Positions 180 through 26,308 of a stretch of 64,000 nt of DNA are shown here, in pieces. Under the pieces are notes generated by a model. It made no database searches. It saw only the letters and a list, made by a program, of their open reading frames with translations, and was not told where the DNA came from. The number at the start of each line of letters is the position of its first letter. Position 1 is the first letter of the stretch. Made by a program: the position numbers and the translations under genes. The DNA comes from an uncultured Hyphomicrobiales bacterium (GTDB lineage: Bacteria; Pseudomonadota; Alphaproteobacteria; Rhizobiales; Beijerinckiaceae): NCBI GenBank assembly GCA_903824185.1, contig CAIJVU010000052.1:1-64000 (forward strand). The letters run 5' to 3'.

Positions 180-1088
180 TTATTTCAGATAATTAAACAG
201 ACTGGTATTGGCAATTTTGGCAAAGGTCTGTTGCGACGCATTCAGGTTCAGACTTTTTTGCTGAAACTGCGTAGCGGCCACTTCAAGATTTGTATCCTGC
301 AAACTGGACAATGTTGTATTCAGCGTCAAAGCTGAATTGTCATTAACACCTTTTTGTGCATCAAGACGGGCCAATTGACTGCCTGCCAATGTCTGCACAT
401 TGGAGAAGTGATCAACCATCGCTTGCATTTCATTCACAGAACCCGATGTCGATTTTCCGGCATTGAGCAAGGCAATCGCATCTTGAATAATATCGAAAGC
501 AGAACGGGGATTGCTTTCACCCGGTGTCCGAACAGACATAAATGTATTGGTACCATCCACGCCCGCTTGCACGATTACACCATCGCCCACTTGCAATTCA
601 TGCACGCCATTATCGCCTGAATAATGCACGCGCCCATTGGCATCAGGCGTAAACACGGGAGCCTTGGCACGGAAGCCTCCAAAAATGGCCTCGCCGTTTT
701 GATCTGTTGTGTTGCCGAGATCAACGAGCTGGCCTGAGAGATTTTGCATTTCAATCGCAATTGACTGGCGGTCCGTCGCGGACATCGTGTCATTAGCACC
801 TTGCAAAACAAGTTCTTGCAAACGGGTTGCGATATTGGCGGCCTGCCCGACGGTTGAACTTTGCTGGTTCACACGCGCGGAGGCAAGCGTGATATTGCGC
901 CCATATTGATCAATATTATCGATTTGCAATTGTAGACGTGACGTCTGTGAAAAAACAATCGGATCATCCGATGGCTTGGTGAGTTGCTTGCCGGATGAAA
1001 TCTGCTGTTGAAGCTTGCTGACATCAGCCTGCAAGTCCTGCATGCTTTTGAGCTGAGTATCATAAAATTGTTTGCTGCTTACCTGCAT
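180..1088 (-). CDS. flgL: Flagellar hook-associated protein 3 (hook-filament junction) FlgL
   Basis: FlgL forms the junction layer between hook-associated protein FlgK and the flagellin filament outside the cell. The protein of about 302 aa has the normal length and organisation. A flagellin-like N-terminal helix (SSKQFYDTQLKSMQDLQADVSKLQQQISSG, split here as SSKQFYDTQL and LQQQISSGKQ) is followed by a P-S-D-D-P motif. The C-terminal helix ends with an S-L-F-N-Y-L-type terminus, so the gene is complete despite the insertion element just downstream. The start is either GTG at 1091 or the adjacent ATG at 1088; I prefer the ATG. It follows flgK by about 15 bases and is the last gene of the flgG-H-I-J-K-L block. 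No terminator was seen after it. Confidence 0.93.
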   Translation of the reverse strand: MQVSSKQFYDTQLKSMQDLQADVSKLQQQISSGKQLTKPSDDPIVFSQTSRLQLQIDNIDQYGRNITLASARVNQQSSTVGQAANIATRLQELVLQGANDTMSATDRQSIAIEMQNLSGQLVDLGNTTDQNGEAIFGGFRAKAPVFTPDANGRVHYSGDNGVHELQVGDGVIVQAGVDGTNTFMSVRTPGESNPRSAFDIIQDAIALLNAGKSTSGSVNEMQAMVDHFSNVQTLAGSQLARLDAQKGVNDNSALTLNTTLSSLQDTNLEVAATQFQQKSLNLNASQQTFAKIANTSLFNYLK

Positions 1089-1105
1089 CACTCAAACCCC
1101 CGTCA

Positions 1106-4100
1106 TCACATAATCTTATAGATCGCATCAAACAGCGCCTTAGCCGTATTGATGACTTCAGCAGAGGCTTGATAGGCCTGCTGGAATCTCAGCAAATTTG
1201 CCGCCTCTGTATCCAAGCTAACACCCGTCTTGCCATCATAAGATGCCTGCAAGCTCGCAACCGCTGCCTGCGATGATGTAGACGTATCATTTGCAGCCTG
1301 CGCGGTCGAGCTTAACTGCGTGGACATAGCGGCATAAATATCCTGGAATGTGCCCGAATTGGCTCCGAAAGCATCCTTGCTTTGCAAAGCCCCAAGCAAG
1401 ACGGCATTTCGATTGTCACCCGTGCGTGTCGGGTCGGTGACAATCGAATAGCTATCCCCCACCGACGCATCGCCATTAATGGTAAATGACATCCCCAAAT
1501 ATTCAACGGGCGAACCCACTGTATAATCGCGTGTTGCAAGGCTTGCGCCTGAAGACTTATCGAATAGTTCGATCTTACCAGGGGCAATCACCTTCACACT
1601 AAAATCTGGCGTGACAGGATTGGTGCGCGCAATATCGGTGGGATAGCTGGCAATCAAGGAGCGCTTGACCGAAGAAATATCATTGGTTTGTGCGACACTG
1701 ACGGGGGGCACATCGCCCACATCCCGCCATTTTACTGTAATGACACCATTGACATTGGAAGCCCAGACCGGCCATTCAGCCGTAGGTGTGGCAGGCAAAC
1801 CCCCACTCACATTGATACCGGCCTTCAAAGCAATTTGCCTATTCAGATTGTTCACGAAATCTTGCGTGGTCGGAAGAGTCCCCACTTTTACATCAAAGCT
1901 TTGCAAGCCTGTATCATTGGGTGAAAGCTTCATGGTGACATTGAATGTGTCACCGACTGAAATCGGTAATGTGCTCTGCAATGTCTGGACTTCAGCAAGT
2001 CCAGACCCTGGCTTGACACCATCATTTTCAGAATGAACCGTCACAGCAACCGGCTGCTGGTTGCCACGGATAATGGTTGAAACAACTAAGGGCTTATAGC
2101 CGTTATCTGCAAAGGTCACGACCAATTGGTTTTTAACCGAATCATAGGAAACGGTCGGCTTCAAGGTCACACCAGAATTATTGATCTTGTTTTGCAAGAT
2201 CGAAGACAGATCAACAACCGACTGAGCACCCGTCACATAAAGCGGTCCGGTGAAATTCATACCGGGAATATTGAAACTGACCGTATCCGACATTTGCAAA
2301 TTCGTCGGTATGTCAATGGTCTGGATCGCAGGAACCGGATCGCCCGCAATCCCTTCAATGGAGGTGCTTGTTTTCACATTGCTGGACTGAACGGCAACGA
2401 TCAGATCTTCAGGAATGGGACCCGTCAGAGTCAGTGAATCGGCAACCCGCGAAATGGATTTACTGGTATCAACAACCGGCGCAATCACGCCATACGAGTC
2501 CGCAACCGTTGTTGCAAAAGTCAGGGTATCATTGACACGCGCAAGCGATACCCCCGCCGCCATAAAGCCAAGTGATTGAGCATTGCTTTGATCAGCGGCT
2601 GAATTTGCTGCCACCTGCAAATCATTGTAGGACGATTGCAGCGTAACATGCCCGAATTGATCCACAGACCAATCAATTCCGGTTGTATCGGACGGATAAA
2701 GCTTGTTGGGATCAGACGCGTCAAAACCCGCCGGATTGCCAATGGTTACCTGATGATTGGCACCATTAAAATAGACATTGATCGCCGCACTTGTTTGCGA
2801 ACCAAGATCAAGGCTGGAGGCCGCAGATCCTGTCACCCGATAGGCCAGAGACTTCGGTGACGTTGACGTATTGAACCCAAGCGCTGCGCTAGGGGCTGAC
2901 AGCGAGAAATCAGTCGTTTTGGAGGTCAGGCGCAACTTGCCATCACTGCCTGTATACCAACTCAGATCGGTACCGTTCTGGTTATCGGTGCCGGATGTGG
3001 AATTGATGGTGAGCGTATAGGGTTTACCAAGATACACGACATTCAGCGTGCTTGGAATTGTTGTGACAGCGGCGTCTGCGGCAATGGTCGGCTGTAATCC
3101 CAAAGCAGACAATTGGGTGGCTGACGCGGACTGTGTTCCCGACAGATTGAGGGTCTGCGGATTGACACCCAAAGATTGCGGCAATGTAAAATTGAGGTAA
3201 TCCTGCCCACCTTCATGCATGATGGTGACGTTGAGCGGCGGCAAACCGTCTGACGTAAACTTGGCATCATTACTGATGGTGGCACCGGGGTTCAGCCCCA
3301 AAGTGGCAGCATCTGTTCCGCTAATCGAAATATTGCTGGTGCCGCTGCCTACTTCGGGCGGCAGATCGACCGACAATTTGCCATCAGGATTAACAAAGAA
3401 CTGCATGTCCTGCGACCATGACGATGAGAGTTTCCCCCATTGGTCATTATAGGGAACAGGCTCAGCTTTGACTGACGAGGACGGATTACCATTGGCATCG
3501 ACGCCGCGTGTCAATTGGAAGGTTTGGGTCACAGCACCCAAATCCTTGTTGTTGACGGTGATATTGACGGAATAGGTGGCACTGCCCATGGTTTGGCTGG
3601 CTGTGACAACACTGTTTCTGATCATGGAAACAGTCTGATCCGAACCATTCACATTAACGGCAAATTTTAACGCACCCTCGCCGAGTGCTCCCCAATCTAT
3701 CGCCTGCCCTTTAACCGACTGGACGGACGCTTGTTGCGTGAGTTTGGCTTCCATCGCCTGCGCAATTTCAGACGCACTCTTGCCCAAAATATCTGTGCCA
3801 CTCAACCGCACCGAATTCATGCTGTCGGGCACTTTGAGATCATAAACCGCACCGGCGATTACCGAACCACTATTGTCGGTGGCTTGGGCACCATCTGTTT
3901 GCGGATAGGCTGCGACTTTTACAGAAGTGCTACGGTCTTTGTTGATGATGACCGTCATCGGAGCGCTGGTTTGCTGCAAACCGATATTGCGATAGCCTGC
4001 GGTGTCGATCGGCGGCATGTAAACCGCGTCCGGTAAAAATCCGTTGGCAACCGTCAGTAATTTCTTAGCTTGGTCAGGCGACAGCACAGGGCCTGTCAAC

Positions 4101-6457
4101 TGTCGGCCTTCCCGCGTGAAGACTTGCAAATTGGTGCCACCGAAGCCACTTTCAACCGTTGCGTCGAGTGCCAGCGTGTGGCTTGGAACAGCAGATGGGT
4201 CGACAACAAAATCCGACGCAACCGAGGCTTTGACGAGCTGGTTCGAACCCAGGGCGTTAATGGTCAACACACCATTGACCGCACTGGCTGTCAGCTGTTC
4301 GGAATAGCCTTGGAATTTGAGATCGGCATTGATGGCATCGGCAAGACCTTCAATCGATCCTGAATTCACACCATCAAACACATGCAAATCTTTGCTGGAA
4401 CCGGTAAACGGTACAAGACCGGTCACACCCGCATTGGCCGTAAGTGTCAAGGCAGAGCCTGTCGCCGCCCCCAGCGACCAGTCGGTCACCTGACCACCAA
4501 AGACTCCGATAGCCGGGCCTGTCGGATTGGTGGGATCAACATAATCGCCCAAAGCACCGGCATTGAAACCCGCAAAGGCTGTTGCAACATCATGAGCCTT
4601 CATATCCTGCAAAGCTGTGAAGGTGACACCCGCAACCGTGACCGATTGGCCAGCCTGCAAATCCGTCAATGTCACAGTATTGGTCGGCGGTGTAGCCCCA
4701 TCGGTTGTGGGGGGCGACAAAACAGGCGCAGGCACTGTCGATTCTGGATAAGTCGAGGACGAGGCCGTGCCCAAATATTTTTGTAAATCCGTATTGAAAT
4801 TAAGCGCAATGGATTTCAGGCTGGTGCCGTCATTGATCGCAAGATTAACGGTCGGATTATAACCCTGCTTCATCGCCAGCATCAGCTTGGCCGGATCAAG
4901 CGATTTGCCAAACATGTCCTTGCCAAAACTTGCGGAAGGCAAGGTCCGCAAGGACGACAAGGTCACATTGGTCGCACCCGACGGAATGAGCGAGACAACC
5001 CCATCCGCTTTCACACCGATCGCCCCGCCGGGGGTTTGCGACTGGCTGAACACATTCTGGATTTGCAACAAGGGCGGCGCTGCAACAGTCTGCTGGGATT
5101 TATTGATCGCAATGGAGGCTGTGCCGGCATTGCTGGCATTGGTGTCCGCATAAAGCGGCATCGACATCGCCCATTGCGTCGGATCGGTGATCAACAACCG
5201 CATACCGGCCGCTGCATCCTGCAACGGGCTGATTGTGAAATTGTCACCCGACTTGGCCGTGCCTTCGAAATGGAATTTCAAGCCGTCCAATGTCAGGTCA
5301 CCCGAACCACTGACGGATTTTTTCGAGGTCTGCGCTGTGATCGTCCATTTTTGCGAGGGGCCGTCATAAGTTGCAACATAGGTGTCAGACGATGTAGTCC
5401 CCATGCTTGAGGGGTCAATGGTCAACTTGGAAGAACCCTGATTGGATTGCGAGGGGGTTCCACTCAAGGTGTCTGTTGAGAAAAGCGCGAGACCCTGATT
5501 ACCCGCAAGATCCACCCCTTGCACATGCTGGGTGTTCATGTTGTTGGCAAAGGCCAGCGCCAACCGATTGAAACTGTCGCGCGTATAAAGACATTGGCTG
5601 CGATAAAGCTGTAAACCCGCCAAGGTACCGGACGTCACCTGATTGGTGACGGCATTCGTGCCACCGGGATCAAATACAAAATCAAGGCGCTGGCCAGTAA
5701 TCTGCGACCCCAATTTATGGGCGGTAATCCCGTCCACCAATTTCGCACCACCGGTCGAGTCACCCAAATAAACCGTAATCTTGCCCGATGGCTCTTCGGC
5801 CACTTTGATCGACACCAGTTGTGACAATTGATTGACCAATTTATCGCGCTGGTCGAGTAGATCATTGGGCTGTTGTGCACTGCCGGTCGAGGCCGCAATG
5901 CTTGCATTCAGTTTGGCGAGTTGATCGATATAGCCATTGGCAGAAGACAACACCGTATTGATATTGGTTTCCGCAAAACTCGCTTCCTGATTGATCGAGC
6001 TGATCTGTGTATGAAATTGATCAACGATTTGCTGAGCGCCTGTCAGCGCGGCAGTACGGGCCGACATCGAAGACGGGCTATTGGCCACATCTTGCAAATT
6101 GGAAAAGAATTTTTGCATGGCCGTGCTGACAGTGGACGTCGGCATCAAAACACGCCGTTCCAATTGTCCCATGCTGGTGGCGAGTGCCTGCGCTTGGGCA
6201 CTTGCGGCATTGGCCGACCAAACAGCATCACGCAAAAACGTATCGGAGGCGCGCTTGATAACATCGACGGAAACGCCTGTACCGCTTTGGGTCGTCAACG
6301 TCAAAGGCGAGCTCGGACCCACGCCTGCTGTTGAGAGCGTCGCATCCCGATGCACATAGCCGTCCGTATTCGCATTGGCGATGTTATTGCCCGTGACTTC
6401 AAGAGATTTCCGGTAAGCTGAAATCCCCGAAGCGCCAATGCTTAAAATGTCACTCAT
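1106..6457 (-). CDS. flgK: Giant flagellar hook-associated protein 1 FlgK (1783 aa)
   Basis: FlgK caps the hook and forms the first hook-filament junction ring. The N-terminus (IGASGISAYRKSLEVTGNNIANANTDGY, i.e. the GNNIANANTDGY signature near residue 23) and the C-terminal 60 residues (NLLRFQQAYQASAEVI near the end) are canonical. The family is usually about 500-700 aa. Here more than 1000 extra residues are inserted in the exposed middle. The insert is rich in Ser, Thr, Gly, Asp and Val, as in beta-rich surface domains. At least one internal repeat is visible: a G-x-D-W/LSW...G-x-L/V-x-L-x-S motif near residues 1150-1200 recurs near 1240-1290. The ATG at 6457 is clear. It lies between flgJ and flgL in one operon. 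Confidence 0.93.
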   Translation of the reverse strand: MSDILSIGASGISAYRKSLEVTGNNIANANTDGYVHRDATLSTAGVGPSSPLTLTTQSGTGVSVDVIKRASDTFLRDAVWSANAASAQAQALATSMGQLERRVLMPTSTVSTAMQKFFSNLQDVANSPSSMSARTAALTGAQQIVDQFHTQISSINQEASFAETNINTVLSSANGYIDQLAKLNASIAASTGSAQQPNDLLDQRDKLVNQLSQLVSIKVAEEPSGKITVYLGDSTGGAKLVDGITAHKLGSQITGQRLDFVFDPGGTNAVTNQVTSGTLAGLQLYRSQCLYTRDSFNRLALAFANNMNTQHVQGVDLAGNQGLALFSTDTLSGTPSQSNQGSSKLTIDPSSMGTTSSDTYVATYDGPSQKWTITAQTSKKSVSGSGDLTLDGLKFHFEGTAKSGDNFTISPLQDAAAGMRLLITDPTQWAMSMPLYADTNASNAGTASIAINKSQQTVAAPPLLQIQNVFSQSQTPGGAIGVKADGVVSLIPSGATNVTLSSLRTLPSASFGKDMFGKSLDPAKLMLAMKQGYNPTVNLAINDGTSLKSIALNFNTDLQKYLGTASSSTYPESTVPAPVLSPPTTDGATPPTNTVTLTDLQAGQSVTVAGVTFTALQDMKAHDVATAFAGFNAGALGDYVDPTNPTGPAIGVFGGQVTDWSLGAATGSALTLTANAGVTGLVPFTGSSKDLHVFDGVNSGSIEGLADAINADLKFQGYSEQLTASAVNGVLTINALGSNQLVKASVASDFVVDPSAVPSHTLALDATVESGFGGTNLQVFTREGRQLTGPVLSPDQAKKLLTVANGFLPDAVYMPPIDTAGYRNIGLQQTSAPMTVIINKDRSTSVKVAAYPQTDGAQATDNSGSVIAGAVYDLKVPDSMNSVRLSGTDILGKSASEIAQAMEAKLTQQASVQSVKGQAIDWGALGEGALKFAVNVNGSDQTVSMIRNSVVTASQTMGSATYSVNITVNNKDLGAVTQTFQLTRGVDANGNPSSSVKAEPVPYNDQWGKLSSSWSQDMQFFVNPDGKLSVDLPPEVGSGTSNISISGTDAATLGLNPGATISNDAKFTSDGLPPLNVTIMHEGGQDYLNFTLPQSLGVNPQTLNLSGTQSASATQLSALGLQPTIAADAAVTTIPSTLNVVYLGKPYTLTINSTSGTDNQNGTDLSWYTGSDGKLRLTSKTTDFSLSAPSAALGFNTSTSPKSLAYRVTGSAASSLDLGSQTSAAINVYFNGANHQVTIGNPAGFDASDPNKLYPSDTTGIDWSVDQFGHVTLQSSYNDLQVAANSAADQSNAQSLGFMAAGVSLARVNDTLTFATTVADSYGVIAPVVDTSKSISRVADSLTLTGPIPEDLIVAVQSSNVKTSTSIEGIAGDPVPAIQTIDIPTNLQMSDTVSFNIPGMNFTGPLYVTGAQSVVDLSSILQNKINNSGVTLKPTVSYDSVKNQLVVTFADNGYKPLVVSTIIRGNQQPVAVTVHSENDGVKPGSGLAEVQTLQSTLPISVGDTFNVTMKLSPNDTGLQSFDVKVGTLPTTQDFVNNLNRQIALKAGINVSGGLPATPTAEWPVWASNVNGVITVKWRDVGDVPPVSVAQTNDISSVKRSLIASYPTDIARTNPVTPDFSVKVIAPGKIELFDKSSGASLATRDYTVGSPVEYLGMSFTINGDASVGDSYSIVTDPTRTGDNRNAVLLGALQSKDAFGANSGTFQDIYAAMSTQLSSTAQAANDTSTSSQAAVASLQASYDGKTGVSLDTEAANLLRFQQAYQASAEVINTAKALFDAIYKIM

Positions 6458-6889: not shown

Positions 6890-8119
6890 TTAAATGACGA
6901 TCAGTTCGGCGTGCAGAGAACCGGCCTGTTTCAACGCTTCCAAGATCGCGACAAGATCGGCCGGCGATGCACCAACCGCATTCATTGCATCAACAATGCT
7001 CGACAATTCAGCACCTGGCGCAAACAAGAATGTATGGGCTGGCTGCTGATCCACTGTGATCTGTGAATCCTGGGTCGTAACCGGCTGACCACCGGGTGCA
7101 ACAACGCCCCCTTGCGCGATGATCGCACCATTGGGCTGTGTCACTTTCTGCATTTCCTTGATATTGACCGTCAAGCTGCCATGCGAGACCGCAGCCGGTG
7201 TTACATGCACACCTTCACCAATCACAATGGTGCCGGTGCGTGAATTGACAATCACACGGGCCGGAGGTGGCGCTTGCGAGACTTTGATGTCTTCAATGGC
7301 TGACATAAAGGCAACGCGCTGATCCGTATTACTTGGTGCCATCACGCGGACAGTCGCCGCATCCATCGCCGAGGCTGTGCCCTCGCCCATCACCTTATTA
7401 ATTGCCTGTGTCAGACGAGTGGCGGTCGAAAAATCAGCGGTGTTGAGATTGATCATCATGGCGGGCATGGTATCAAACGGATTGGCAACAATGCGCTCAA
7501 CCGAAGCCCCACCAGGGATACGACCAACGGTCGGAATATTCACAGAGACTTTGGAACCGTCTTTGGCTTCGACACCGAGACCGCCCACCGACAGGTTGCC
7601 TTGCGCCATGGCATAGGTTTCATTATCGGCCCCAACAAGCTGCGTCATCAGCAAGACGCCGCCTTTCAGGCTTGTTGCCTTGCCAAGCGCCGAAACCGTG
7701 ACATCAATCCGCTGGCCGGGTTTAGAGAAAGCGGGCAAATCGGCCGTCACCATCACAGCTGCGGAATTGGCCGCATTCAAACTGTTGATGTCGGTTATGG
7801 TCTGACCAAAACGCTGCACCATGCTTTGCAGGCTTTGCAAAGTGGCAGCGACGTTCCCGTCACCGGTCTTATTGAGACCCACAACAATGCCGTAACCCAC
7901 CAACTGGTTAGAGCGCACACCCGCGAATGTCGCCAGATCCTTCACGCGATCCAACCGTTCGGGAGCGCGTGGTGCGGATGACGGCACTGCCGCGCTCGCA
8001 AGAACTTGCGGCGCAGAGGATGCATTTGCAGGGACTGCTGGAGGTTGCACTTGAGCCATCGCAGACTGCGAGATCAGGGCAACAGTCACCAGAAGGGAAC
8101 GCAGCGAAATCATACGCAT
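6890..8119 (-). CDS. flgI: Flagellar P-ring protein FlgI
   Basis: FlgI builds the periplasmic P-ring bushing around the rod in the peptidoglycan layer. The 409-aa protein opens with a Sec signal peptide ending around A-Q-A/M-A-Q (residues 1-23). An unusually Ala/Pro/Ser-rich stretch of about 30 residues follows. Then come the conserved R-V-K-D-L-A-T-F-A-G-V-R-x-N-Q-L-V-G-Y-G-I-V-V-G-L (in pieces RVKDLATFAGVR and LVGYGIVVGLNKTGDG) and the C-terminal A-I-L-E-A-L-K-x-A-G-x-L-x-A-E-L-x-V-I. Length is near the usual 365-400. It lies between flgH and flgJ, all on the minus strand. Confidence 0.95.
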   Translation of the reverse strand: MRMISLRSLLVTVALISQSAMAQVQPPAVPANASSAPQVLASAAVPSSAPRAPERLDRVKDLATFAGVRSNQLVGYGIVVGLNKTGDGNVAATLQSLQSMVQRFGQTITDINSLNAANSAAVMVTADLPAFSKPGQRIDVTVSALGKATSLKGGVLLMTQLVGADNETYAMAQGNLSVGGLGVEAKDGSKVSVNIPTVGRIPGGASVERIVANPFDTMPAMMINLNTADFSTATRLTQAINKVMGEGTASAMDAATVRVMAPSNTDQRVAFMSAIEDIKVSQAPPPARVIVNSRTGTIVIGEGVHVTPAAVSHGSLTVNIKEMQKVTQPNGAIIAQGGVVAPGGQPVTTQDSQITVDQQPAHTFLFAPGAELSSIVDAMNAVGASPADLVAILEALKQAGSLHAELIVI

Positions 8120-8136
8120 ATTCCAACCCTTTTCAA

Positions 8137-8835
8137 TTACAGAGGTGACAACACATCCAAGGCTTGGCCGTACCAGCCTTGCTTGGTTGCATTGGCTATA
8201 TCGCCTGCGCCGGTATAGGTAACATTGGCTTGAGCAATACGATTTGAATTTACAGAATTGCCGGGGCCGATATCGTCGGGACGCACAAGACCCGAGACCC
8301 GCACATATTCTTCACCTTGGCTCACACTCAACAACTTCTGGCCTTCAATCCACATATTGCCATTGGCATAGACGCGGGTCACCATGACAGTCATCGTCCC
8401 CGTGATTGTGTTGGATTGGTTGGCCGCACCTGAGCCCGCATAAGATTGGTCAACCGTTGCACCTAAAGCCGTTGAGCCGCCCTTAGACCCGCCAAAAATA
8501 CCACTGACAACACCAACAGGCCCGAACAAGGCACTTGGTAAACCGATGCTGGCCGAGCCTTTTCGGGTCACTGTGCCATCATTGGATTTGGTCGCCGAAA
8601 TCGTTTCCGTGATATTGACGGTCAAGACATCACCGACATTCCGCGCTCGACGGTCGCCAGAGAAAAAGCCGGTTTGGGCGGCAGAATAAATCGCTCCATC
8701 CGCAGCCTTTTCCTTCACAGCCACAACATTGTCGTAGCTAGCCTGAAATGACTCGGACACACGCGCTTCCTGCATTGTGTTGCAACCAGAAAGGGCGAGA
8801 GCCGTCAAAGTCGCGAGAACGTGAAGCTTACGCAT
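8137..8835 (-). CDS. flgH: Flagellar L-ring lipoprotein FlgH
   Basis: FlgH forms the outer-membrane L-ring. The 232-aa product has a lipoprotein signal peptide with the lipobox L-S-G-C (cysteine at about residue 18). It then carries the family hallmarks G-D-V-L-T-V-N-I-T-E and V-x-G-x-V-R-P-x-D-I, with N-x-V-x-S-x-x-I-A-x-A near the C-terminus. Its length is typical. It follows flgG by 11 bases and precedes flgI, which makes translational coupling likely within this operon. Confidence 0.95.
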   Translation of the reverse strand: MRKLHVLATLTALALSGCNTMQEARVSESFQASYDNVVAVKEKAADGAIYSAAQTGFFSGDRRARNVGDVLTVNITETISATKSNDGTVTRKGSASIGLPSALFGPVGVVSGIFGGSKGGSTALGATVDQSYAGSGAANQSNTITGTMTVMVTRVYANGNMWIEGQKLLSVSQGEEYVRVSGLVRPDDIGPGNSVNSNRIAQANVTYTGAGDIANATKQGWYGQALDVLSPL

Positions 8836-8846
8836 CAGAGCCTCCC

Positions 8847-9632
8847 TTAAACATTCTGCGTGAGATATTTCAGCATGCCGTCAACCGACGAGATCGCTTT
8901 CGAATTCACTTCATAAGCACGCTGTGTTTCGATCATGCTGACAAGCTCTTCCACAACATTGACGTTGGACGCTTCAAGCGCACCCTGCAAAATCGTGCCG
9001 CGTGGCGGCGAACCGGGCGCACCCACATTCGGCGCACCGGACGATTGCGTTTCAAGCGCCAAAGTACCGCCCAATTGCTTCAGGCCGGCATTGTTCGGGA
9101 AGGTTGCGATTTCGACGGTGCCCACTTGCTGCAATTTGGTCTGGCCAGCCAGCGCAACCGAAACGATGCCATCCGAAGAGACGGTGATGGAGGTGGCTTC
9201 GGGGGGAATGGTAATCGCAGGCTCAAGCGGATAACCGTTTGAGTTCACAACGCGGCCCTGTGAATCCTTGGTGAAGTTACCGGAACGGGTATAGGCGATC
9301 TGGCCGGTGGGCATCAGGATCTGGAAGAAGCCAGCCCCTTCCACTGTCATATCCAGTGAATTATCGGTGCTGATGATGTTGCCCTGACTGTAGAGCTTTT
9401 CAGAAGCCGCCACACGCACACCGGTACCAATGGCAAGACCTGTTGGGGACTGTGTGTTCTGGGAGGTCTGCGAGCCGACTTCACGCTCAGTTTGGTAAAG
9501 CAGCGATTCAAAGCTTGCACGATCGCGCTTGAAGCCAACGGTATTAACGTTCGCCAGATTGTTCGAGATCACGCTCATGCGTGTCTGTTGGGCATTAAGA
9601 CCCGTTTTGGCGATATGAAGAGCATCAGACAT
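8847..9632 (-). CDS. flgG: Flagellar distal rod protein FlgG
   Basis: FlgG makes the distal rod that spans the periplasm. The 261-aa length is standard. The N-terminal rod/hook motif (NNLANVNTVGFKRDRA, residues 25-40) is followed by the TDNSLDMTVEGAGFF region. The C-terminal motif L-E-A-S-N-V-N-V-V-E-E-L-V-S-M-I-E-T-Q-R-A-Y-E and the S-S-V-D-G-M-L ending are diagnostic for FlgG. It is the first gene of flgG-H-I-J-K-L. An AGGAAAGG ribosome binding site sits before the ATG, and a sigma-54 promoter lies about 35 bases upstream. Confidence 0.96.
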   Translation of the reverse strand: MSDALHIAKTGLNAQQTRMSVISNNLANVNTVGFKRDRASFESLLYQTEREVGSQTSQNTQSPTGLAIGTGVRVAASEKLYSQGNIISTDNSLDMTVEGAGFFQILMPTGQIAYTRSGNFTKDSQGRVVNSNGYPLEPAITIPPEATSITVSSDGIVSVALAGQTKLQQVGTVEIATFPNNAGLKQLGGTLALETQSSGAPNVGAPGSPPRGTILQGALEASNVNVVEELVSMIETQRAYEVNSKAISSVDGMLKYLTQNV

Positions 9633-9664
9633 GGGCAGACCTTTCCTGTGTCACGCCCAATAAA

Positions 9665-9684
9665 TAGCAACTTTCATGCCAGTT
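9665..9684 (-). promoter_or_regulatory. Sigma-54 promoter of flgG operon
   Basis: Read on the minus strand: TGGCATGAAAGTTGCTA. GG (bases 9679-9680) and GC (9667-9668) are separated by exactly 10 bases, as required for the -24/-12 elements. The predicted start of transcription is near 9655, about 23 bases before the flgG ATG. The -24 element lies inside a perfect inverted repeat (9675-9694). Confidence 0.8.
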
Positions 9685-9694
9685 GACTGGCATG
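9675..9694. repeat. Perfect 9-2-9 palindrome over the flgG promoter -24 element
   Basis: CATGCCAGT-TG-ACTGGCATG is a perfect inverted repeat covering the -24 half of the flgG promoter. The other arm has no GC at the correct spacing, so it is not a second sigma-54 promoter. It may be an operator, or a chance extension of the -24 box. Confidence 0.55.
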
Positions 9695-9775
9695 GTCACA
9701 AAAGCCTGAAAAAACTAGGAAAACCCTCAGAAAATAGAGGAAAACCGTGCCTATTTCCGTTGAAAAAACCCTGCT

Positions 9776-10525
9776 TTAGCGGTCATTACGCATCAACCGC
9801 GCAGTTTCCGTATCAATTTCTTTGGCCGTCGAAATCAGTTTAACCTTCATGTCATAAGAGCGGGAATGTTCAACCAAATTGACCAAAGTCTCGACCGAAT
9901 TGACGTTACTCGCCTCCAAAACTTTGGAATTGAGCTTCATATTGGGATCCAAAGCCGGAATTTGTCCGTTTTTGGGTCGTAAAAAGCTATCAAAGCCACG
10001 GGTCAGGTTTTGCGCGGGTGTCGACACCAGCGAAATCCGGCCAATAGGCGTCATATTGGGATTATCATCCCCTGCCGGTTGGATCGAAATTGTACCGTCA
10101 GCCGCCACTTCAATGCGTTTATAAGGGGGAACCGCAATTGGACCACCCGCACCGATGATCAGATTGCCGTCGCCATTGCGCAAAAACGTGTCGGTTCCAA
10201 CCTTCATATCGCCACGGCGGGTCAGAACCTGATCCCCTTTCGGCGTTTGGGCGACAATATAGCCATCCCCATCAACGGCCACATCCAGCGTGCTGTCGGT
10301 TGGCATCATATTACCGCGCGCGGTACTGATGCCGTTTTCGCCACGGGTGCCGAACACACGATCTTCAACGCTGTTATCGGATTTCAGATAAACCGAGCCA
10401 AGATTGTCCGACAAATCGGCCTGAAAACCGATTGAATTCGACTGTGCCAGATTTGACGTGGTTATCTTCTGGTTTTCAGCCATCAACCGCATCGAATTCA
10501 ATGCGACCTGTGTCAAACGATCCAT
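9776..10525 (-). CDS. flgF: Flagellar proximal rod protein FlgF
   Basis: FlgF is a proximal rod subunit. The 249-aa product lacks the strong N-N-I-A-N signature and has T-T-S-N-L-A-Q-S-N-S-I-G-F-Q instead, typical of divergent FlgF proteins. It keeps the central T-D-S-T-L-D-V-A-V-D-G-D-G-Y motif (near residue 80). The C-terminal V-L-E-A-S-N-V-N-S-V-E-T-L-V-N-L-V-E-H-S-R-S-Y motif is also present. It follows flgE by about 48 bases. The gap of about 140 bases after it carries the separate flgG promoter. Confidence 0.92.
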   Translation of the reverse strand: MDRLTQVALNSMRLMAENQKITTSNLAQSNSIGFQADLSDNLGSVYLKSDNSVEDRVFGTRGENGISTARGNMMPTDSTLDVAVDGDGYIVAQTPKGDQVLTRRGDMKVGTDTFLRNGDGNLIIGAGGPIAVPPYKRIEVAADGTISIQPAGDDNPNMTPIGRISLVSTPAQNLTRGFDSFLRPKNGQIPALDPNMKLNSKVLEASNVNSVETLVNLVEHSRSYDMKVKLISTAKEIDTETARLMRNDR

Positions 10526-10573: not shown

Positions 10574-13500
10574 TTATGCGCGGATCTGAATGATGGTTTG
10601 CGTCAAACTTGTTTCCGTTTCGATCGCTTTGGAGTTCGCTTGGAAGTTCCGTTGCGCTGTAATCAGTTTAACAAGTTCTTCGGTAATGTCGACGTTCGAT
10701 TGTTCAAGCGCGCCCGCCTGAATGGAGCCCAAGCCGTCAGATCCCGCCTGACCCAAAGTGGCCTGACCGGAGACCGATGTCGCGACATAGTCGGCGTTAC
10801 CAATCTGCTTCAACCCGTTGGGGTTGGCGAAGTTGGCGATAATCACCTTGCCCAGCGCATTGGTCTGGCCGTTGGTGTAGTTGGCGATTACCGTCCCCGA
10901 ACTATCAATCGTCAAACCGTTAAGCGAACCGGAGGGATAACCATCCTGCGTCAAGGATTGCACCGAGAATGGCTGGGTATACTGGGTCGAGAACTTGCCG
11001 TAATCGATGGTCAGGTTCAATGGATTGGAACCGTTGCCGGGATCGAAGGGCGAGTAAACCACACCCTGCTTTGGCGAGATCAATTTACCGGCGGTATCGA
11101 AGGTCAATTCACCGGGGGTCAGATAAAGCGGTGACCAGCTCTGCAGCTTTGTGGACGGGGCAACGGTCGAAATATTACCGCTGCCATCGACGTAAAGCTT
11201 GTTGCCGTTGGTGTCTGTTGCCTGCACCAGATTGGTGATGGACGGCACACTACCGGCCGTCTGCGACACGGAATTCAAACCGAAGTTAGCCGACCCCACC
11301 ACGTTGATCTGAGATGTTGAACCCGTGGTCCCAGATGTGAAGACCAGACGGTTGTTATTGGCATCAAATTTAACAGACACACCCGAGACCACACGGCCTG
11401 TGACAGGATCCTGGATCTGGTTGACGCGTTGCTGAATAGCGGAGGCGAAAGTATCCCCCGTATAAGCACGGATCGGCAAAATGATGGTGCCGGTGATACC
11501 ATCGACGGTGAAGGTGAGTTTGTTTTCACCGAGGCTTTCATTGAGTAGGAAGGTCTGGCTCATCGGCGTAATAGCAGAGGAACCGTAAGCCGTTGCAGCG
11601 GTCGAGGCAAGACCCGTGCCTGCCACGGTTTGTTGGGCTTTCACCGCACCAATACCAAGCAAGTCATTGTTGCCGGCATAAATGGTCGCCGAATTGCTGG
11701 TGGTGGCCAATGACTGACCAATTTGCACGCCCGATTGGGATTTTGATCCCGTTGCACCTACCGCTTCGACAGGCGACACGACACCGCCGGTTTGCACATT
11801 AAGATGATAGGGTTCACCATTCGGATTGCCCTGCACCGTCATGCGATGATTGCCATCAAGCGCGATCGAGAACGGGCCGATGCTGTCAGGGCGAACCTTC
11901 GTGACCGCAGGTGTTGCAATGTCTGTTGACCAGACCTGGTCTTGGGAGATTGACACCTTGCCGGAAACGACAGCGGGTTGGTTGAATGTAAATTCGATCG
12001 TGTTTTTGTTGGTGTCTTTGCTGTTAAGCGAAAACGCCCCGATATTAGAACTAATCGTTGCATCCGCATTGATGGACGTGACCAGATCGGCCGATGTCAA
12101 TGCGTCCCCCGCAGTCGCACCGTCTTTATGTATGGTAATTTTCTTTGTTAGGACAGATCCATCCGCTTTCGGAACATTGACCACAAAAACATCGCCTTCA
12201 TGGATCGCGTAATCCGTGCCATTGGTCGGCTTCAACACAAAGGACTGGATTTCCTTGGTCTTGGCGTTACCGGCTTGGGTCACAACCGTTGGTGAGGTAT
12301 AGACGGTCTGATTGGTAAAATTCAGATCCGTCAAAGCCTCATTGCCATCCGTGCCACGCACGGTCTGTGCCATAGTCAAAAGCGTAGGCACAATCCCCGA
12401 GCTTTGATAATCAAACATCAACTGGTTGGTTTGCCCAGGAACCAATTTGCACAACAGGCTTGTGGATGGGCTATAAGTGCCGCCAATGGCTGTGCTTACA
12501 GCTGTATTGATGGATGAAATCAACGCATTCACACGATCCGATGATGTTGCAGGAGCAACAAAATTCGCATTTTGGGTCGTGGTCGCATCAAACACCAAAG
12601 GTCCCACAGACACAGGTGTCGGCTGTTTGTCGCCGGGCTTCAAGATTACATTCAGATTGTAGGTATCACCAGCCATCAGATTGCCAAAGACCGGCAACAT
12701 TTGCTGCTCGGCCTGCGATGTCGCGGTACCAGCCTGCACCTGCATTGCCGCATTGAAAGTTACCGGCATGGCCTGCTGCAATTTGGCAACCAAAGCATCG
12801 GCCGTTGCAGGCGTCACCGCCGCATCCGTAAAATAGGTGAAGCTCTTACCATCCGATTCAAGGGTGATCGGCGCGTTGATTGGCAAAGCAAGCGAGCTGA
12901 AATCATAGCTGTTGATTTGTGGCTTGACATCCTGAGCTTGCGCAAGCGTTGCACGCCCCACTTTAATGGTCGAGGTTTCACCCGTTGTCCCGGAGGAAAA
13001 CACGAATTGACGTGAATCCTTGTTATAGGAAATGGTGATGCCGGTGCGCTGATCACCCACAGCTGTCAAGGGTGGACCCGATGGCAACACGGCACTGCCC
13101 GACCAATAGGTATTAGTTCCAATCACACCAGCCTGACTTGCCGTAACAGATGGGATACCCAAATCATTGGTAACAGAATTGGGATTGAAAACCTGAAGGG
13201 TTTGGTAACGGTTTTGCGGCAAAGCGGCATCGGTGCCGAGCTGCAAGGGATCCGCTTTGAAGGTCAAGGCGCGGGTGGCCACATCAAATCCGACAATGAC
13301 TGGAGGATTGTTTGTATCAGGCCAATCAGAATTTTTACCAAATTCCGCATGACGAGAATTGAGAGCCTCGTTCACCTTTTTCTGAGCCAAAGCGATCAAA
13401 TCGTCGCGGGTCAAATCGAGATAGTTAAGCTGCTGGACGCTACCGACTCCCGATCCATCGACAACGGCCGGCGTACCATCCGCACCGGCTGTGCCGAGCA

Positions 13501-14821
13501 AATCAATTTCAAGCGGGGGATTAAGAGTTGTGGTTGAACCATCACTTTCAGTGCGTGAGAGACTGACGTTAAACACATCATTGCCGGAAATCACGCTATT
13601 GCTGGTATCGCGATAAGTATCGTTGATACGGAAATAATTGGCATTGCTGAATTTGGCATTCACTGCGCGGGTCATCTCGGCAGCCAATTGGCTCCCGGTG
13701 TAAGAACCCGCATTGATCGAGATGGATTGCGGTGCCGAACCGTCCACACTGATGGTGAACATATCCGTGCCCCAGAACGGCGAGGTCAGCGAGGAGACTT
13801 TGCCCGATTCACGGGTTGTATCATATTTTGACGGATCGTCGACAATTGTGACCTTATTGGCATCCGTATCACCAAAATCAAAACCAACTAAATTCTGGAT
13901 CGACCCAACAACCTGTGCCGGTGTGGACTGACTCTTTTTGATCTGGTCATCTTGATAATAAAGCGGCGATGGCTGATTGGCGACAAAGCTCGAGTCAAAG
14001 CTTGTCGGATCGGTGGTCGTCTGCCCGTATTTATTGATGTAAATGGTCTTGCTCTGGTCATCCTTGGAGGTGATCAGCGATGGATCGACTTCCTTGTCAC
14101 CCACAAACACATGCGTCTGCCAACGGTTGTTGGGGATCGCACTGGTGGCGTTCAAGGTCTTGACATAATAAATGGTCGCAATCGTCGGATTGCCCAATGA
14201 GTCATAGATGGTGATCGATGTTGACTGGTTGTAGGTGGCCGAGTTTGTTCGATCAAATTTGTAAGGATTGCTGTCGGTATAAACCGCATTGCTCGGAATG
14301 ATTGTCGCATCAGCTGGCAAGTTCAGACCCAACTGAATGGACGATGTGGCATTCGGCAAGCCGGAGGTTGAAGGCAGCTGCAAATTCTTGGCGGATTGAA
14401 TACCCGTCGCGATCACCGATCCGTCCGAGTTGACCGGGAACACTTGCAGATACTGACCCTGTGAATCCACAACATACCGGTTGTTATTGACGCTGAACGA
14501 TCCGTTGCGGGTATAGACCGTTTGGGTAGAAGTCAGACTTGGTTTCAATGCAAAAAAGCCCTGACCAGAAATCGCCATGTCGAGTGAATTCTGGGAGGCC
14601 GAAATATTGCCTTGCGTGAACTGCTGCTGAACCGTTTTCAAAATGGTACCAGACCCGATCGCCCCGCTCGCATTTTGCAACGGTGAGGTTGCGAAAATGT
14701 CACCAAACTGCGCGCGCGATAATTTGAACCCCGTCGTGCCAACGTTGGCGACGTTGTTCGAAATCGCCGCAATGTCAGCCTGAGAGCCGTTAAGGCCGGT
14801 AAGTGAGGTGTAAAATGACAT
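10574..14821 (-). CDS. flgE: Giant flagellar hook protein FlgE (1415 aa)
   Basis: FlgE polymerises into the hook, the universal joint. Terminal segments are canonical. The N-terminus has S-L-T-G-L-N-G-S-Q-A-D-I-A-A-I-S-N-N-V-A-N-V-G-T-T-G-F-K, then SQNSLDMAISGQGFF near residue 80. The C-terminus has G-A-L-E-Q-S-N-V-D-I-T-E-E-L-V-K-L-I-T-A-Q-R-N-F-Q-A-N-S-K. Usual length is 400-600, so about 900 residues are inserted in the surface-exposed middle. The inserted part contains repeated flagellin-IN-like units. The motif F-S/T-S-G-T-T-G-x-T-S-x-I-x-V appears near residue 605 and again near 1165. It sits between flgD and flgF with no frameshift visible. Confidence 0.93.
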   Translation of the reverse strand: MSFYTSLTGLNGSQADIAAISNNVANVGTTGFKLSRAQFGDIFATSPLQNASGAIGSGTILKTVQQQFTQGNISASQNSLDMAISGQGFFALKPSLTSTQTVYTRNGSFSVNNNRYVVDSQGQYLQVFPVNSDGSVIATGIQSAKNLQLPSTSGLPNATSSIQLGLNLPADATIIPSNAVYTDSNPYKFDRTNSATYNQSTSITIYDSLGNPTIATIYYVKTLNATSAIPNNRWQTHVFVGDKEVDPSLITSKDDQSKTIYINKYGQTTTDPTSFDSSFVANQPSPLYYQDDQIKKSQSTPAQVVGSIQNLVGFDFGDTDANKVTIVDDPSKYDTTRESGKVSSLTSPFWGTDMFTISVDGSAPQSISINAGSYTGSQLAAEMTRAVNAKFSNANYFRINDTYRDTSNSVISGNDVFNVSLSRTESDGSTTTLNPPLEIDLLGTAGADGTPAVVDGSGVGSVQQLNYLDLTRDDLIALAQKKVNEALNSRHAEFGKNSDWPDTNNPPVIVGFDVATRALTFKADPLQLGTDAALPQNRYQTLQVFNPNSVTNDLGIPSVTASQAGVIGTNTYWSGSAVLPSGPPLTAVGDQRTGITISYNKDSRQFVFSSGTTGETSTIKVGRATLAQAQDVKPQINSYDFSSLALPINAPITLESDGKSFTYFTDAAVTPATADALVAKLQQAMPVTFNAAMQVQAGTATSQAEQQMLPVFGNLMAGDTYNLNVILKPGDKQPTPVSVGPLVFDATTTQNANFVAPATSSDRVNALISSINTAVSTAIGGTYSPSTSLLCKLVPGQTNQLMFDYQSSGIVPTLLTMAQTVRGTDGNEALTDLNFTNQTVYTSPTVVTQAGNAKTKEIQSFVLKPTNGTDYAIHEGDVFVVNVPKADGSVLTKKITIHKDGATAGDALTSADLVTSINADATISSNIGAFSLNSKDTNKNTIEFTFNQPAVVSGKVSISQDQVWSTDIATPAVTKVRPDSIGPFSIALDGNHRMTVQGNPNGEPYHLNVQTGGVVSPVEAVGATGSKSQSGVQIGQSLATTSNSATIYAGNNDLLGIGAVKAQQTVAGTGLASTAATAYGSSAITPMSQTFLLNESLGENKLTFTVDGITGTIILPIRAYTGDTFASAIQQRVNQIQDPVTGRVVSGVSVKFDANNNRLVFTSGTTGSTSQINVVGSANFGLNSVSQTAGSVPSITNLVQATDTNGNKLYVDGSGNISTVAPSTKLQSWSPLYLTPGELTFDTAGKLISPKQGVVYSPFDPGNGSNPLNLTIDYGKFSTQYTQPFSVQSLTQDGYPSGSLNGLTIDSSGTVIANYTNGQTNALGKVIIANFANPNGLKQIGNADYVATSVSGQATLGQAGSDGLGSIQAGALEQSNVDITEELVKLITAQRNFQANSKAIETETSLTQTIIQIRA

Positions 14822-14874: not shown

Positions 14875-15609
14875 TCAGTATTTAATGCTCTTGATATCGG
14901 ACATTTTCACTGTCCCGACACCACCAACCACAAAGTTCTGGGTCTGGCCTGCCGCCGGGATCGGCACTTCCGTAATCGGTGCATAAACGTCGGTGTTTTG
15001 CGCTGTAGACTTTCCGCCCGCCATCGCTGTTGCTGAGACGTTATAAGAGGAATTGCCGACTGGATTACCACTGGCATCTTTGCCATCCCACGAGAAGCCG
15101 ACAAGGCCAGCCGGATTGGCACCAAGGCTGAGGCTTTTCACAACCGTTCCGCTCTGGTCGGTAATCTGCACATTCAAGGAGGTCACAGAATTAGGCAGGT
15201 CTATCGCGCCGCTGATCGCACCCGTTGAGTCTGCCAAAGCCGTTGTGCCAGGCACCAGAACCGTCTTACCGGCGAAGCTCGCAACGGTTGCAATCTGGTT
15301 ATCGGAAATCTGAGTGGCCATGGTGCTCATTGTGGTATTGAGCTGCTGGATACCGGTCACCGTCGAGAACTGCGCCATCTGCGCAATCATCTGCGTATTA
15401 TCTTGCGGCTGGAAGGGATCCTGATTGGCCATCTGCGTCGTCATCAGCTTCAAGAAGTCGGTTTGATCAAGCGACGTCTTATTTGGCGTAGCCGTCGAGG
15501 TCGCACCAGACGCGGTTGTCGTGCCAGACTTCGTGACTCCGAGCTTGTTAAGAAGCTGGTCAAGCGTCTGTTGTGCTGATGTCGAGCCGGTTGAGCTTGT
15601 GGTCGTCAT
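14875..15609 (-). CDS. flgD: Hook assembly scaffold protein FlgD
   Basis: FlgD caps the growing hook and is lost when FlgK arrives. The 244-aa protein has a Ser/Thr-rich N-terminus. The diagnostic D-F-L-K-L-M-T-T-Q-M-A-N-Q-D-P-F-Q-P-Q-D-N (around residues 51-71) follows, and then the Q-M-A-Q-F-S-T-V-x-G-I motif. The C-terminal half has a FlgD Ig-like fold signature (FSWDGKDASGNPV, near residue 170). It lies 30 bases after flgC and 53 bases before flgE in the same operon. Confidence 0.95.
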   Translation of the reverse strand: MTTTSSTGSTSAQQTLDQLLNKLGVTKSGTTTASGATSTATPNKTSLDQTDFLKLMTTQMANQDPFQPQDNTQMIAQMAQFSTVTGIQQLNTTMSTMATQISDNQIATVASFAGKTVLVPGTTALADSTGAISGAIDLPNSVTSLNVQITDQSGTVVKSLSLGANPAGLVGFSWDGKDASGNPVGNSSYNVSATAMAGGKSTAQNTDVYAPITEVPIPAAGQTQNFVVGGVGTVKMSDIKSIKY

Positions 15610-17954: not shown

Positions 17955-18776
17955 TTATTTAATCAGAGTTTCTGCGGCCGAGCGCAACATTTCCGACTCC
18001 GTCTGCAACGCACGGGAATTGCCGTTATAGGCCTGCTGCGCACTGATCATGTGCAGCAATTCCTGTGTGATATCAACATTGGAGGCTTCGAGAACCCCCT
18101 GATTGATGGAGCCGTATCCGGCCTTGCCGGGCCCGCCATAAGTCGGGGCACCCGAAACGGAGGTCTCTTTCAAGATGACGCCTGACTGCTCTTTCAAGCC
18201 GCCTTCATTGGGAAAACGGGCCAGAGCCAGCGTACCGGCAGTTGCAATCGTGCCATCGGTTTTGGCAACGGTCACAGTGCCGCTGCCGTCAATGCTGACC
18301 GATTTGATGTTGCGCAGATTACCGCCAGCGGCAGCCATCAGATCAAGTTTGGTGGGTGCTGCCGTGGTTGCCCCCAAAGGGGCCGTCTTGTAGCCCATGA
18401 CCGGAAGACCATCGGCGCTGGTCAAAATGCCGTCATTGCTGATGGTAAAATTACCGGCGCGGGAATAGTTGAAGGTCTGGTCGCCATTGGCGGTGCCTGC
18501 CCCGAGGGTAAAATAGCCCCCACCGGCAATGGCCACATCAAGACCCGAATTGGTCGCCTCAAACGTGCCCTGTTGCAATTGACGCTGCACATCCAATGTC
18601 ATCACACCCTGACCGATTTCAATGGCCGGACGGGTTCCCTGATCCGCACTCCGCAGATCACCAAACTGGGCCACGGAGCGTTTGAAAGCGGTCGTTTGGC
18701 CGTTGGCGAGGTTGTTCGAGGTCACATTCAAATCTTTGGAAGCGGCCTGCAAACCACTCAGCGAGGTTCTCATCAT
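17955..18776 (-). CDS. Short FlgE/FlgG-type hook-like protein
   Basis: A rod/hook-superfamily protein of 273 aa. The N-terminus is S-L-S-G-L-Q-A-A-S-K-D-L-N-V-T-S-N-N-L-A-N-G-Q-T-T-A-F-K. A mid motif T-N-S-G-L-D-V-A-I-A-G-G-G-Y-F follows. The C-terminus is L-E-A-S-N-V-D-I-T-Q-E-L-L-H-M-I-S-A-Q-Q-A-Y-N-G-N-S-R-A. The length is rod-like, but the termini (V-D-I-T-Q-E-L, Y-N-G-N-S-R-A-L-Q-T) resemble the hook-like protein at 46981 more than FlgG. It is extra to flgF, flgG and the giant flgE already present. It heads its own operon with a near-consensus sigma-54 promoter. It could be a minor hook or rod component, or a hook for a second flagellar type. Confidence 0.85.
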   Translation of the reverse strand: MMRTSLSGLQAASKDLNVTSNNLANGQTTAFKRSVAQFGDLRSADQGTRPAIEIGQGVMTLDVQRQLQQGTFEATNSGLDVAIAGGGYFTLGAGTANGDQTFNYSRAGNFTISNDGILTSADGLPVMGYKTAPLGATTAAPTKLDLMAAAGGNLRNIKSVSIDGSGTVTVAKTDGTIATAGTLALARFPNEGGLKEQSGVILKETSVSGAPTYGGPGKAGYGSINQGVLEASNVDITQELLHMISAQQAYNGNSRALQTESEMLRSAAETLIK

Positions 18777-25201: not shown

Positions 25202-26308
25202 ATGCGGTCTCGTCTTTACCTGCTTTCATCGCTGCTACCGGCCTGTTTAGGCTGCTTGCTTCCCATGCAAGACAGCGAGGCTGCGACGCGGATTGTGCAT
25301 GCCCGTGGTGCAGCGGCGATTGTCGGCAATGACATTGCCTCGGCGCGCAAAGCCGCCCTTGCCGAAGCGCTGTATGATGCGGCGGGTCAGGGACAATCCT
25401 CGGTGCGGGGCGCCAGCCATATGTCGACCTTGGGCGTTGCCAATGAGGAAAGCTCGATTTTGGTGCAAGGCCGTATCCGCGATTATCAGGTGGTCGAGGA
25501 AAAGCGCGAAGGGGGACGCTATGTCGTCACCATCGATGCTTTGGCTGACAACAAAGATGATTTGTGCAAGACGGGGCGCAAATTCGACCTCGAATTGCGC
25601 TCCATGTCGGTGAATGTGGCACCGGGCCTGTCCGGCCATGTGCAAAAACAAGCCGAAGACAGTGTCGAGCGCGCACTTTATAAAATGGTTGATAGCGAAG
25701 GCTTCCGCGTCGAAGACCGGCGCAATCTCTACCAGTCCTCCCGCCAATCCAGCCCCAATCAATATCAAAGCATTATCACTGGACAGGTGCCGATCAATAT
25801 GGTGGGCGGCTATTCGGTCAACGGGACTATGGTTGTCGAGCGCACCCGCCGCGACACGCTGGCCTTGAATATCACCGCCCTGAAAGCAACGGTGACCCTG
25901 CGGCTGACCGATACGCTGACCGGCCAAATGGCACCAACAGTGCAAAAAACCATGGAAATGCCTATTAAAAACAGGGTTTGGGGCAGCAATTACGACACAC
26001 TCCTGATCGAAGCCGCCGATTTTGAAGGCTTGTGGGACAAAGTCGCGGATGGTTTGCAGGACATGCTGGAATGCCAGCCCTTGCGGGCCCGTGTGATTGA
26101 GGTGTCGGGATCCAATGCCCGCTTGTCCGTTGGAAATCGCAACGGAATCAAGGCTGGCGACTATTTCCTTGTCGAATTCCCCGGTCAAAAGGGTCAGGGA
26201 TGGCAGTTGATGGTCATTGAAAGCACCGGACCGACCACCTCTGTGGCGCGGATGATGAAGCCAACCCCTGTTGTGACACGCAACGCAACCGCGGTTTTGA
26301 TGCAATGA
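25202..26308 (+). CDS. flgT: FlgT-like periplasmic H-ring protein
   Basis: A 368-aa secreted protein with a Sec signal peptide ending near residue 27. Its N-terminal domain (A-R-G-A-A-A-I-V-G-N-D-I-A-S-A-R-K-A-A-L-A-E-A-L-Y-D-A-A) matches the FlgT-N pattern. A middle domain and a C-terminal SH3-like portion follow (V-G-N-R-N-G-I-K-A-G-D-Y-F, near residue 316). In Vibrio, FlgT builds the H-ring that stabilises the basal body in the outer membrane and helps assemble stators. Its last 4 bases overlap flgA. The family call rests on architecture and context rather than on high identity. Confidence 0.72.
   Translation: MRSRLYLLSSLLPACLGCLLPMQDSEAATRIVHARGAAAIVGNDIASARKAALAEALYDAAGQGQSSVRGASHMSTLGVANEESSILVQGRIRDYQVVEEKREGGRYVVTIDALADNKDDLCKTGRKFDLELRSMSVNVAPGLSGHVQKQAEDSVERALYKMVDSEGFRVEDRRNLYQSSRQSSPNQYQSIITGQVPINMVGGYSVNGTMVVERTRRDTLALNITALKATVTLRLTDTLTGQMAPTVQKTMEMPIKNRVWGSNYDTLLIEAADFEGLWDKVADGLQDMLECQPLRARVIEVSGSNARLSVGNRNGIKAGDYFLVEFPGQKGQGWQLMVIESTGPTTSVARMMKPTPVVTRNATAVLMQ

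Follow-up and report, generated by a model that had tools for sequence, protein, structure and literature searches.

A giant FlgK encoded with a giant FlgE in an alphaproteobacterial flagellar operon, and its possible place in a thickened hook

The flgK gene and its operon

The window, meaning here the whole analysed stretch of 64,000 nucleotides, carries flgK on the reverse strand at 1106..6457. The gene encodes a giant hook-associated protein 1 (HAP1) and is identified by its open reading frame, Pfam, TIGR02492 and a tree. The frame starts with ATG, contains no internal stops and extends over 1783 residues. FlgK consists of three parts, all on the reverse strand: an ordinary N-terminal part with D0/D1 and a D2-like domain (aa 1-440; 5138..6457), aligned with Salmonella FlgK 9-441; an added exposed region (aa 441-1600; 1658..5137), which has no counterpart in Salmonella FlgK; and a conserved C-terminal part (aa 1601-1783; 1106..1657), whose occupancy among giant FlgKs is 0.99-1.00. 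The N part is nearly gapless across the giants.

Within the N part, Pfam places Flg_bb_rod at aa 6-34 (29.5 bits) and FlgK_D1 at aa 97-326 (183.8 bits, E 4.9e-54, profile positions 2-233 of 233), followed by the D2-like flgK_1st_1 domain at aa 339-411. At the opposite end, Flg_bbr_C spans aa 1744-1779 (27.6 bits, cut-off 23), and the NCBIfam FlgK model TIGR02492 scores 269.5 bits against a cut-off of 170.75. The N and C domains of flagellin were not found in this protein by Pfam. With Flg_bb_rod, FlgK_D1 and Flg_bbr_C all matched and the TIGR02492 cut-off passed, the normal termini described in the original prediction are borne out, and by its domains and tree position the protein is a true FlgK.

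The profile built from 19 giant FlgKs aligns with residues 9-441 and then 451-552 of Salmonella FlgK (553 aa); aa 1601-1783 also align with Burkholderia FlgK 487-669. Because the Salmonella alignment breaks only at 441-451, the additions are placed in a single gap within the exposed region. Approximately 1,160 residues are added between aa ~440 and ~1600, in agreement with the more than 1000 extra residues first proposed. Relative to 553 aa the excess reaches ~1,230 residues, which is above the figure given then.

In the window and in the operons of relatives, flgK lies directly before flgL in the order flgE-F-G-H-I-K-L. The flgL gene (180..1091, reverse strand; 303 aa; Flagellin_N 85 bits, TIGR02550 232.7 bits) is of ordinary size, as are flgI, flgH, flgG and flgF (409, 232, 261 and 249 aa; 6890..10525, reverse strand); FlgG and FlgF are supported by Flg_bbr_C matches, and FlgI and FlgH are named by reading. 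Further upstream in the same operon lies a second giant gene, absent from the original prediction: flgE, encoding a hook protein of 1415 aa with FlgE_D2, LlgE_F_G_D1 and Flg_bbr_C matches (10574..14821, reverse strand). The gene of the hook cap, flgD, is again ordinary (14875..15609, reverse strand; 244 aa; Pfam FlgD and FlgD_ig).

The rod, rings and FlgL of the giant operons keep their ordinary size. In the relatives' operons flgE encodes 996-1695 aa and flgK 984-1783, next to flgF of about 250, flgG of 261 and flgL of about 300 aa. Complete ORFs in giant operons give 248-292 aa for FlgF, 261 for FlgG (273-274 in some congeners' ORF calls) and 300-318 for FlgL, with one ORF call of 403. Fourteen giant FlgEs, from the window and relatives, were aligned.

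The hook-length control gene fliK (35235..37730, reverse strand) encodes 831 aa (open frame 838) with Pfam Flg_hook at 723-803, and FliK open frames of the relatives' presumed matching system measure 632-985. A long FliK was considered as a sign of a longer hook; this argument was dropped because FliK of ordinary systems reaches 754.

Several further genes lie elsewhere in the window. An extra FlgF/FlgG-like rod protein of 273 aa is encoded near a sigma factor gene, away from flgF-flgG (17955-18776, reverse strand). A third FlgE/F/G-like protein (376 aa; 46981-48111, forward strand) is located beside motA and motB, and similar extra copies possibly occur in G002, G008 and G016 (open frames of 323-338 aa). 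Some 8 kb past the motA/motB genes lies a crescentin-type Rod_CreS protein (57999-59468, forward strand; 131.8 bits, cut-off 100).

Relatives, origin and size matching with FlgE

In the phylum-wide sample, FlgK_D1 is matched in 204 of 259 genomes. Among the best 150 of the 204 matches, one open frame exceeds 1000 aa, the window's own, and the next measures 985. The family sample (185 of 248 genomes with a match) holds at least 21 FlgK open frames of 959-1786 aa, all of them in five genera (g1, g5, g13, g29, g30); the 959-aa frame is cut by a contig end. Other family FlgKs among the matches listed measure 252-790 aa, contig-end fragments included. The closest named relatives, in the best 80 of 552 aligned, are MAGs labelled Hyphomicrobiales or Beijerinckiaceae; the G002 contig is CANFLM010000076.1. 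A single-protein scan of the whole window FlgK against named genomes confirmed no relatives. Judging from isolate names, the organisms are probably freshwater alphaproteobacteria.

A quick FlgK tree was built from the first 330 and last 80 residues of 119 sequences, with a midpoint root for drawing only. Duplicates or near-duplicates (L053, L054, L152-L154), contig-cut ORFs and ORFs below 430 aa were left out, along with seven family/order FlgKs lost at the BLAST step (L009, L013-L015, L017, L019, L020). In this tree, 17 family giants from five genera, the window's included, form one group (SH-aLRT 100), and all 17 are giant, at 1188-1783 aa. A 91-row side, composed of 72 named outside rows (2 Sphingosinicella among them) and 19 giants, is split from 28 normal FlgKs of the family and order with SH-aLRT 100. 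The giants sit on the gamma- and betaproteobacterial FlgK side, apart from the ordinary FlgKs of their family and order. Normal-length orthologues in close relatives, which the original prediction had named as evidence against itself, were sought, and none turned up: all complete FlgKs of the orthologous clade are giant; by their position elsewhere in the tree, the normal-length family FlgKs belong to a second flagellar system. L061 (984 aa) and L071 (988 aa, labelled beta proteobacterium) pair in the tree and share parts of the insert (profile of aa 700-830, E 4e-13 and 8.9e-13), which suggests that the insert grew stepwise.

Several genomes with the giant set, G095, G205 and G218 among them, carry an additional ordinary FlgK/FlgE pair; in the three genomes with both systems that were read, FlgK of 603-608 aa is paired with FlgE of 439-451 aa. 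Given these pairs and the tree placement, the giant set is a distinct, probably horizontally acquired flagellar system of gamma/beta type (polar-like). Polar-type accessory domains are present in the window: an SRP54-type GTPase, a ParA-like ATPase, a sigma-70 factor, two sigma-54 activators and FlgT_N. From their domains, we take the accessory genes to encode FlhF, an FlhG/FleN-like protein and a FliA-like sigma factor. These three, sigma-54 activators and FlgT are linked to polar systems. The FlgT_N protein is encoded adjoining flgA (25202-26308, forward strand), and FlgT beside flgA is a feature of Vibrio-type polar flagella.

FlgK and FlgE are enlarged together. With a giant cut-off of 900 aa for both, and loci cut by contig ends left out, 87 loci contain one FlgK and one FlgE, each complete and the only one of its kind; both are giant in 13, neither in 74 and one only in none. 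The 13 giant loci represent 12 genomes, because one contig appears as both L054 and L143. Lengths of FlgK and FlgE within the giants correlate with a Spearman coefficient of 0.85 (n=13). Independent phylogenetic contrasts yield r 0.51 (sign-flip p 0.03), or r 0.47 (p 0.048) without L071, and the correlation left after phylogenetic correction is modest, suggestive rather than strong. The giant state may have arisen only once, and the co-occurrence therefore does not stand for many independent events. FlgK had been presented as an isolated giant; FlgE is in fact giant as well, and the sizes are matched in every locus tested.

Flagellin size is uncoupled from FlgK size: flagellin open frames measure 284-313 aa in many of the genomes with a giant FlgK and 324-615 in others. 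In the window genome (G000), a Flagellin_N search matched only FlgL, a Flagellin_C search gave a non-significant match inside a coiled-coil protein (SMC-like by reading), and the giant flagellin of G004 used as a query found only FlgL. That flagellin, from the same genus, is encoded away from the flagellar cluster (L049:7010-11563; ORF of 1517 codons, or ~1430 aa from a likelier internal start) and contains five copies of module X, described below, besides Flagellin_N and Flagellin_C.

Composition and selection of the added region

The internal repeats of the original prediction exist as divergent repeats in the protein; at the DNA level the claim fails, as repeat scans returned trivial matches only and no tandem repeats of note in flgK. 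A divergent first copy occupies aa 1124-1192 (2882..3088, reverse strand), and a second copy, found in most giants, occupies aa 1200-1309 (2531..2860, reverse strand). The profile of aa 1200-1350 reaches the first copy with 22.3 bits (E 5.5e-9, one-sequence search), and a second profile scan relates the two at E 2.4e-6. By hhalign, aa 831-980 or 921-1070 match windows within aa 1011-1250 at 80-85%. One profile match, between aa 556-655 and aa 341-429, was left unused, its three-row window being judged poorly aligned. Reversed decoys scored at the coiled-coil aa 121-240 (down to 1.5e-4) and at aa 1006-1105 (2.5e-4), and no claim uses either segment.

The insert contains no cysteine in 1160 residues, and its occupancy among the 19 giants ranges from 0.1 to 0.95. 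A base insert (aa 701-950, 1201-1350 and 1601 onward) is widespread; aa 501-700, 951-1200 and 1351-1600 are mostly lineage-specific (0.1-0.45). For flgK of G002 and G003, dN/dS is 0.077 in the N part, 0.127 in the middle and 0.111 in the last 180 codons; the remaining pairs are saturated or less informative (0.163 vs 0.323 for G000/G003; 0.350, 0.411 and 0.320 for G073/G008). By these ratios, the insert is under purifying selection. Were the middle a drifting, nearly neutral bulk tolerated by export, its size without function, the lineage-specific parts and a dN/dS above that of the N part would be accounted for. However, the middle dN/dS of 0.127 lies far below 1, the giant clade contains no complete FlgK of normal size, and the cost would be large for FlgE at the roughly 120 copies per hook given in PMC5069557, which makes neutral bulk improbable.

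The same ratio bears on the concern that the giant FlgK is an artefact of assembly or annotation, a concern raised by a genome in 82 contigs and the position of flgK near a contig start. The reading frame is intact, relatives carry the selection signature and the architecture recurs in assemblies from five genera; the homologues in these genera, together with the middle dN/dS of 0.127 (G002/G003), rule out chance or misassembly, and we give the idea practically no credence.

Large exported proteins can be processed, and proteolysis before or after export could in principle remove the insert and leave an ordinary junction. Flagellar axial proteins, however, leave the cell unfolded, and each assembles by both ends of its single chain, so that an internal excision would need to hold two pieces together; among the window genes scanned, no protease domain was found. 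Such a removal appears very unlikely.

Two modules connect the insert with other proteins. Module X, of ~82 aa, lies at FlgK aa 592-674 (4436..4684, reverse strand; E 5.1e-27). An iterated HMM started from aa 575-700 gives 21 domain matches and none in reversed sequences: they occur in the FlgKs of the window's genome and G122, twice in the FlgE of G217, five times in the G004 flagellin and three times in each of four large congener proteins. A genome search finds module X in 8 of 199 family genomes, including one further protein, of 634 aa in G109. Its gene neighbours an ABC transporter and an HlyD-like ORF (HlyD by reading), which makes the protein a likely type I secretion cargo. A repeat protein of ~1185 aa in G002 (L179:2235-5792) contains several module X copies, with similar ORFs in G001, G003 and G004. 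By reading, the G002 protein lacks a flagellin or rod domain, and these repeat proteins are possibly surface proteins.

Module Y links FlgK to the hook protein itself. FlgK aa 1461-1610 (1628..2077, reverse strand; 96 aligned columns) and FlgE aa 641-790 (12452..12901, reverse strand) align by hhalign at 95.8%, against 15% for the best of 132 reversed controls, and single profiles reach E 2.6e-4. On this profile evidence, the module is common to FlgK and FlgE of this organism.

The presence of module X in the G109 protein and the ~1185-aa congener proteins, and the faster evolution of the insert relative to the N part, would suit a device mainly for surface interaction, an adhesin-like ring with related adhesive modules in FlgE. 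Against this, a Pfam scan of the insert places no domain, adhesin, ligand-binding or other, above its cut-off (Invasin_D4 matches at E 0.49, far below its own), and the size coupling with FlgE and the conserved base insert agree at least equally well with a structural role. An adhesin-like function is thus unlikely, less so than neutral bulk.

A putative thick hook with a FlgK collar

Eleven FlgK subunits make up the layer that sits immediately on the hook and touches FlgE; in Salmonella this layer is about 19 nm wide, and FlgK has been proposed as a stress buffer (PMC12221982). Owing to this position, a giant FlgK is expected to produce a much bulkier hook-filament ring. To this extent the large decorated ring of the original prediction is supported. 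FlgE is giant too, and with the two sizes matched in every locus tested, the ring more plausibly caps a thick hook than forms a decoration of its own. Adhesion, a sheath or protection of the filament base, as first suggested, would each be conceivable uses of such a ring.

We propose a thickened hook with FlgK as its distal collar, the exposed region of FlgK being enlarged together with that of FlgE. The added regions would project outward, and the hook with the FlgK layer above it would form one thick sleeve, ~34 nm across, which the collar would contact and close at the filament start. The likeliest benefit would be that a universal joint and buffer of greater thickness withstands more torque or viscous load.

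Among solved structures, hook diameter rises with FlgE size, from 18 nm in Salmonella to 24.5 nm in Caulobacter and 25.9 nm in C. jejuni (PMC5069557). Crude scaling with the square root of chain length predicts about 33.7 nm for the hook and 34.1 nm for the FlgK layer. For C. jejuni the scaling returns 26.4 nm against an observed 25.9; for Caulobacter, with a FlgE length of 591 aa, it returns 21.8 nm, an underestimate of the observed 24.5. C. jejuni combines a large FlgE with an ordinary FlgK, so a thick hook alone needs no giant FlgK. The near-equality of the two widths is attractive but crude, and together with the C. jejuni case it leads us to hold the collar as somewhat favoured, with considerable doubt.

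AlphaFold models are poor (mean pLDDT 54.8 for FlgK aa 410-1600 and 49.2 for the whole giant FlgE of G073), and outward projection is therefore assumed from position in the chain. On these models, the best Foldseek E is 0.37 and the best VIA-align Z is 7.1; phage tail proteins score Z 5-7, and chains of flagellin and FliD 5.3-6.1. A Z below 8 may mean only a common arrangement, and no fold is claimed.

Growth of the inserts would involve modules of roughly 80-120 residues that are gained, duplicated and exchanged; flagellin and further proteins, probably at the surface, would draw on the same pool. A wider and tentative extension is a modular armoured flagellum, in which interchangeable outer modules would be distributed across FlgE, FlgK, flagellin and other probably surface-exposed proteins and cover the hook, the junction and, in at least one species, the filament. 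If true, a continuous thick outer sleeve would run from the cell surface past the joint. Hook width and stiffness and the design of the junction are usually studied in a few models whose FlgE measures 400-870 aa and whose FlgK measures 550-700 aa. In this clade both proteins are two- to threefold longer, their neighbours are unchanged, and some of the genomes also carry an ordinary system. Such a clade offers a natural experiment on whether hook and junction need matching girth, on how a functioning universal joint acquires outer domains and on the exchange of modules between flagellar axial proteins.

The FlgKs of Salmonella (PDB 9go6), Burkholderia (4ut1) and Campylobacter (9gsx, 5xbj) have the same N- and C-terminal domains as the window FlgK, in chains of 553, 673 and 608 aa compared with 1783 here (5xbj is a 511-aa fragment). 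The window flgK likewise precedes flgL, and an 11-subunit junction layer is expected as in the known FlgKs; divergence of the junction is discussed in PMC5691160. Giant flagellins (PMC6248924) and FlgE enlarged to 865 aa are already known. The open-access literature searched contained no report of a giant FlgK, a giant FlgE or their paired enlargement.

In C. jejuni, FlgE (865 aa, D3/D4) is also enlarged by extra domains in a wider, functional hook, and a Salmonella FlgE that carries these domains supports full motility (PMC5069557). That protein is among the longest hook proteins according to the same source, whereas FlgE measures 996-1695 aa here; FlgK of C. jejuni stays ordinary (608-aa chain), while in this clade it is enlarged too. 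In Bermanella and Oleibacter, flagellins exceed 1000 aa through outer domains, some of them repeated, and thick filaments are documented (PMC6248924). That work concerns flagellin, with no occurrence of FlgK in its main text; here the hook and junction proteins are giant, and most giant-FlgK relatives, unlike Bermanella and Oleibacter, have ordinary or short flagellins. The Fla1 system of Rhodobacter sphaeroides is a foreign flagellar system beside or instead of a native one (PMC7277832), and the set described here, probably acquired as well, differs from it in its enlarged FlgE and FlgK.
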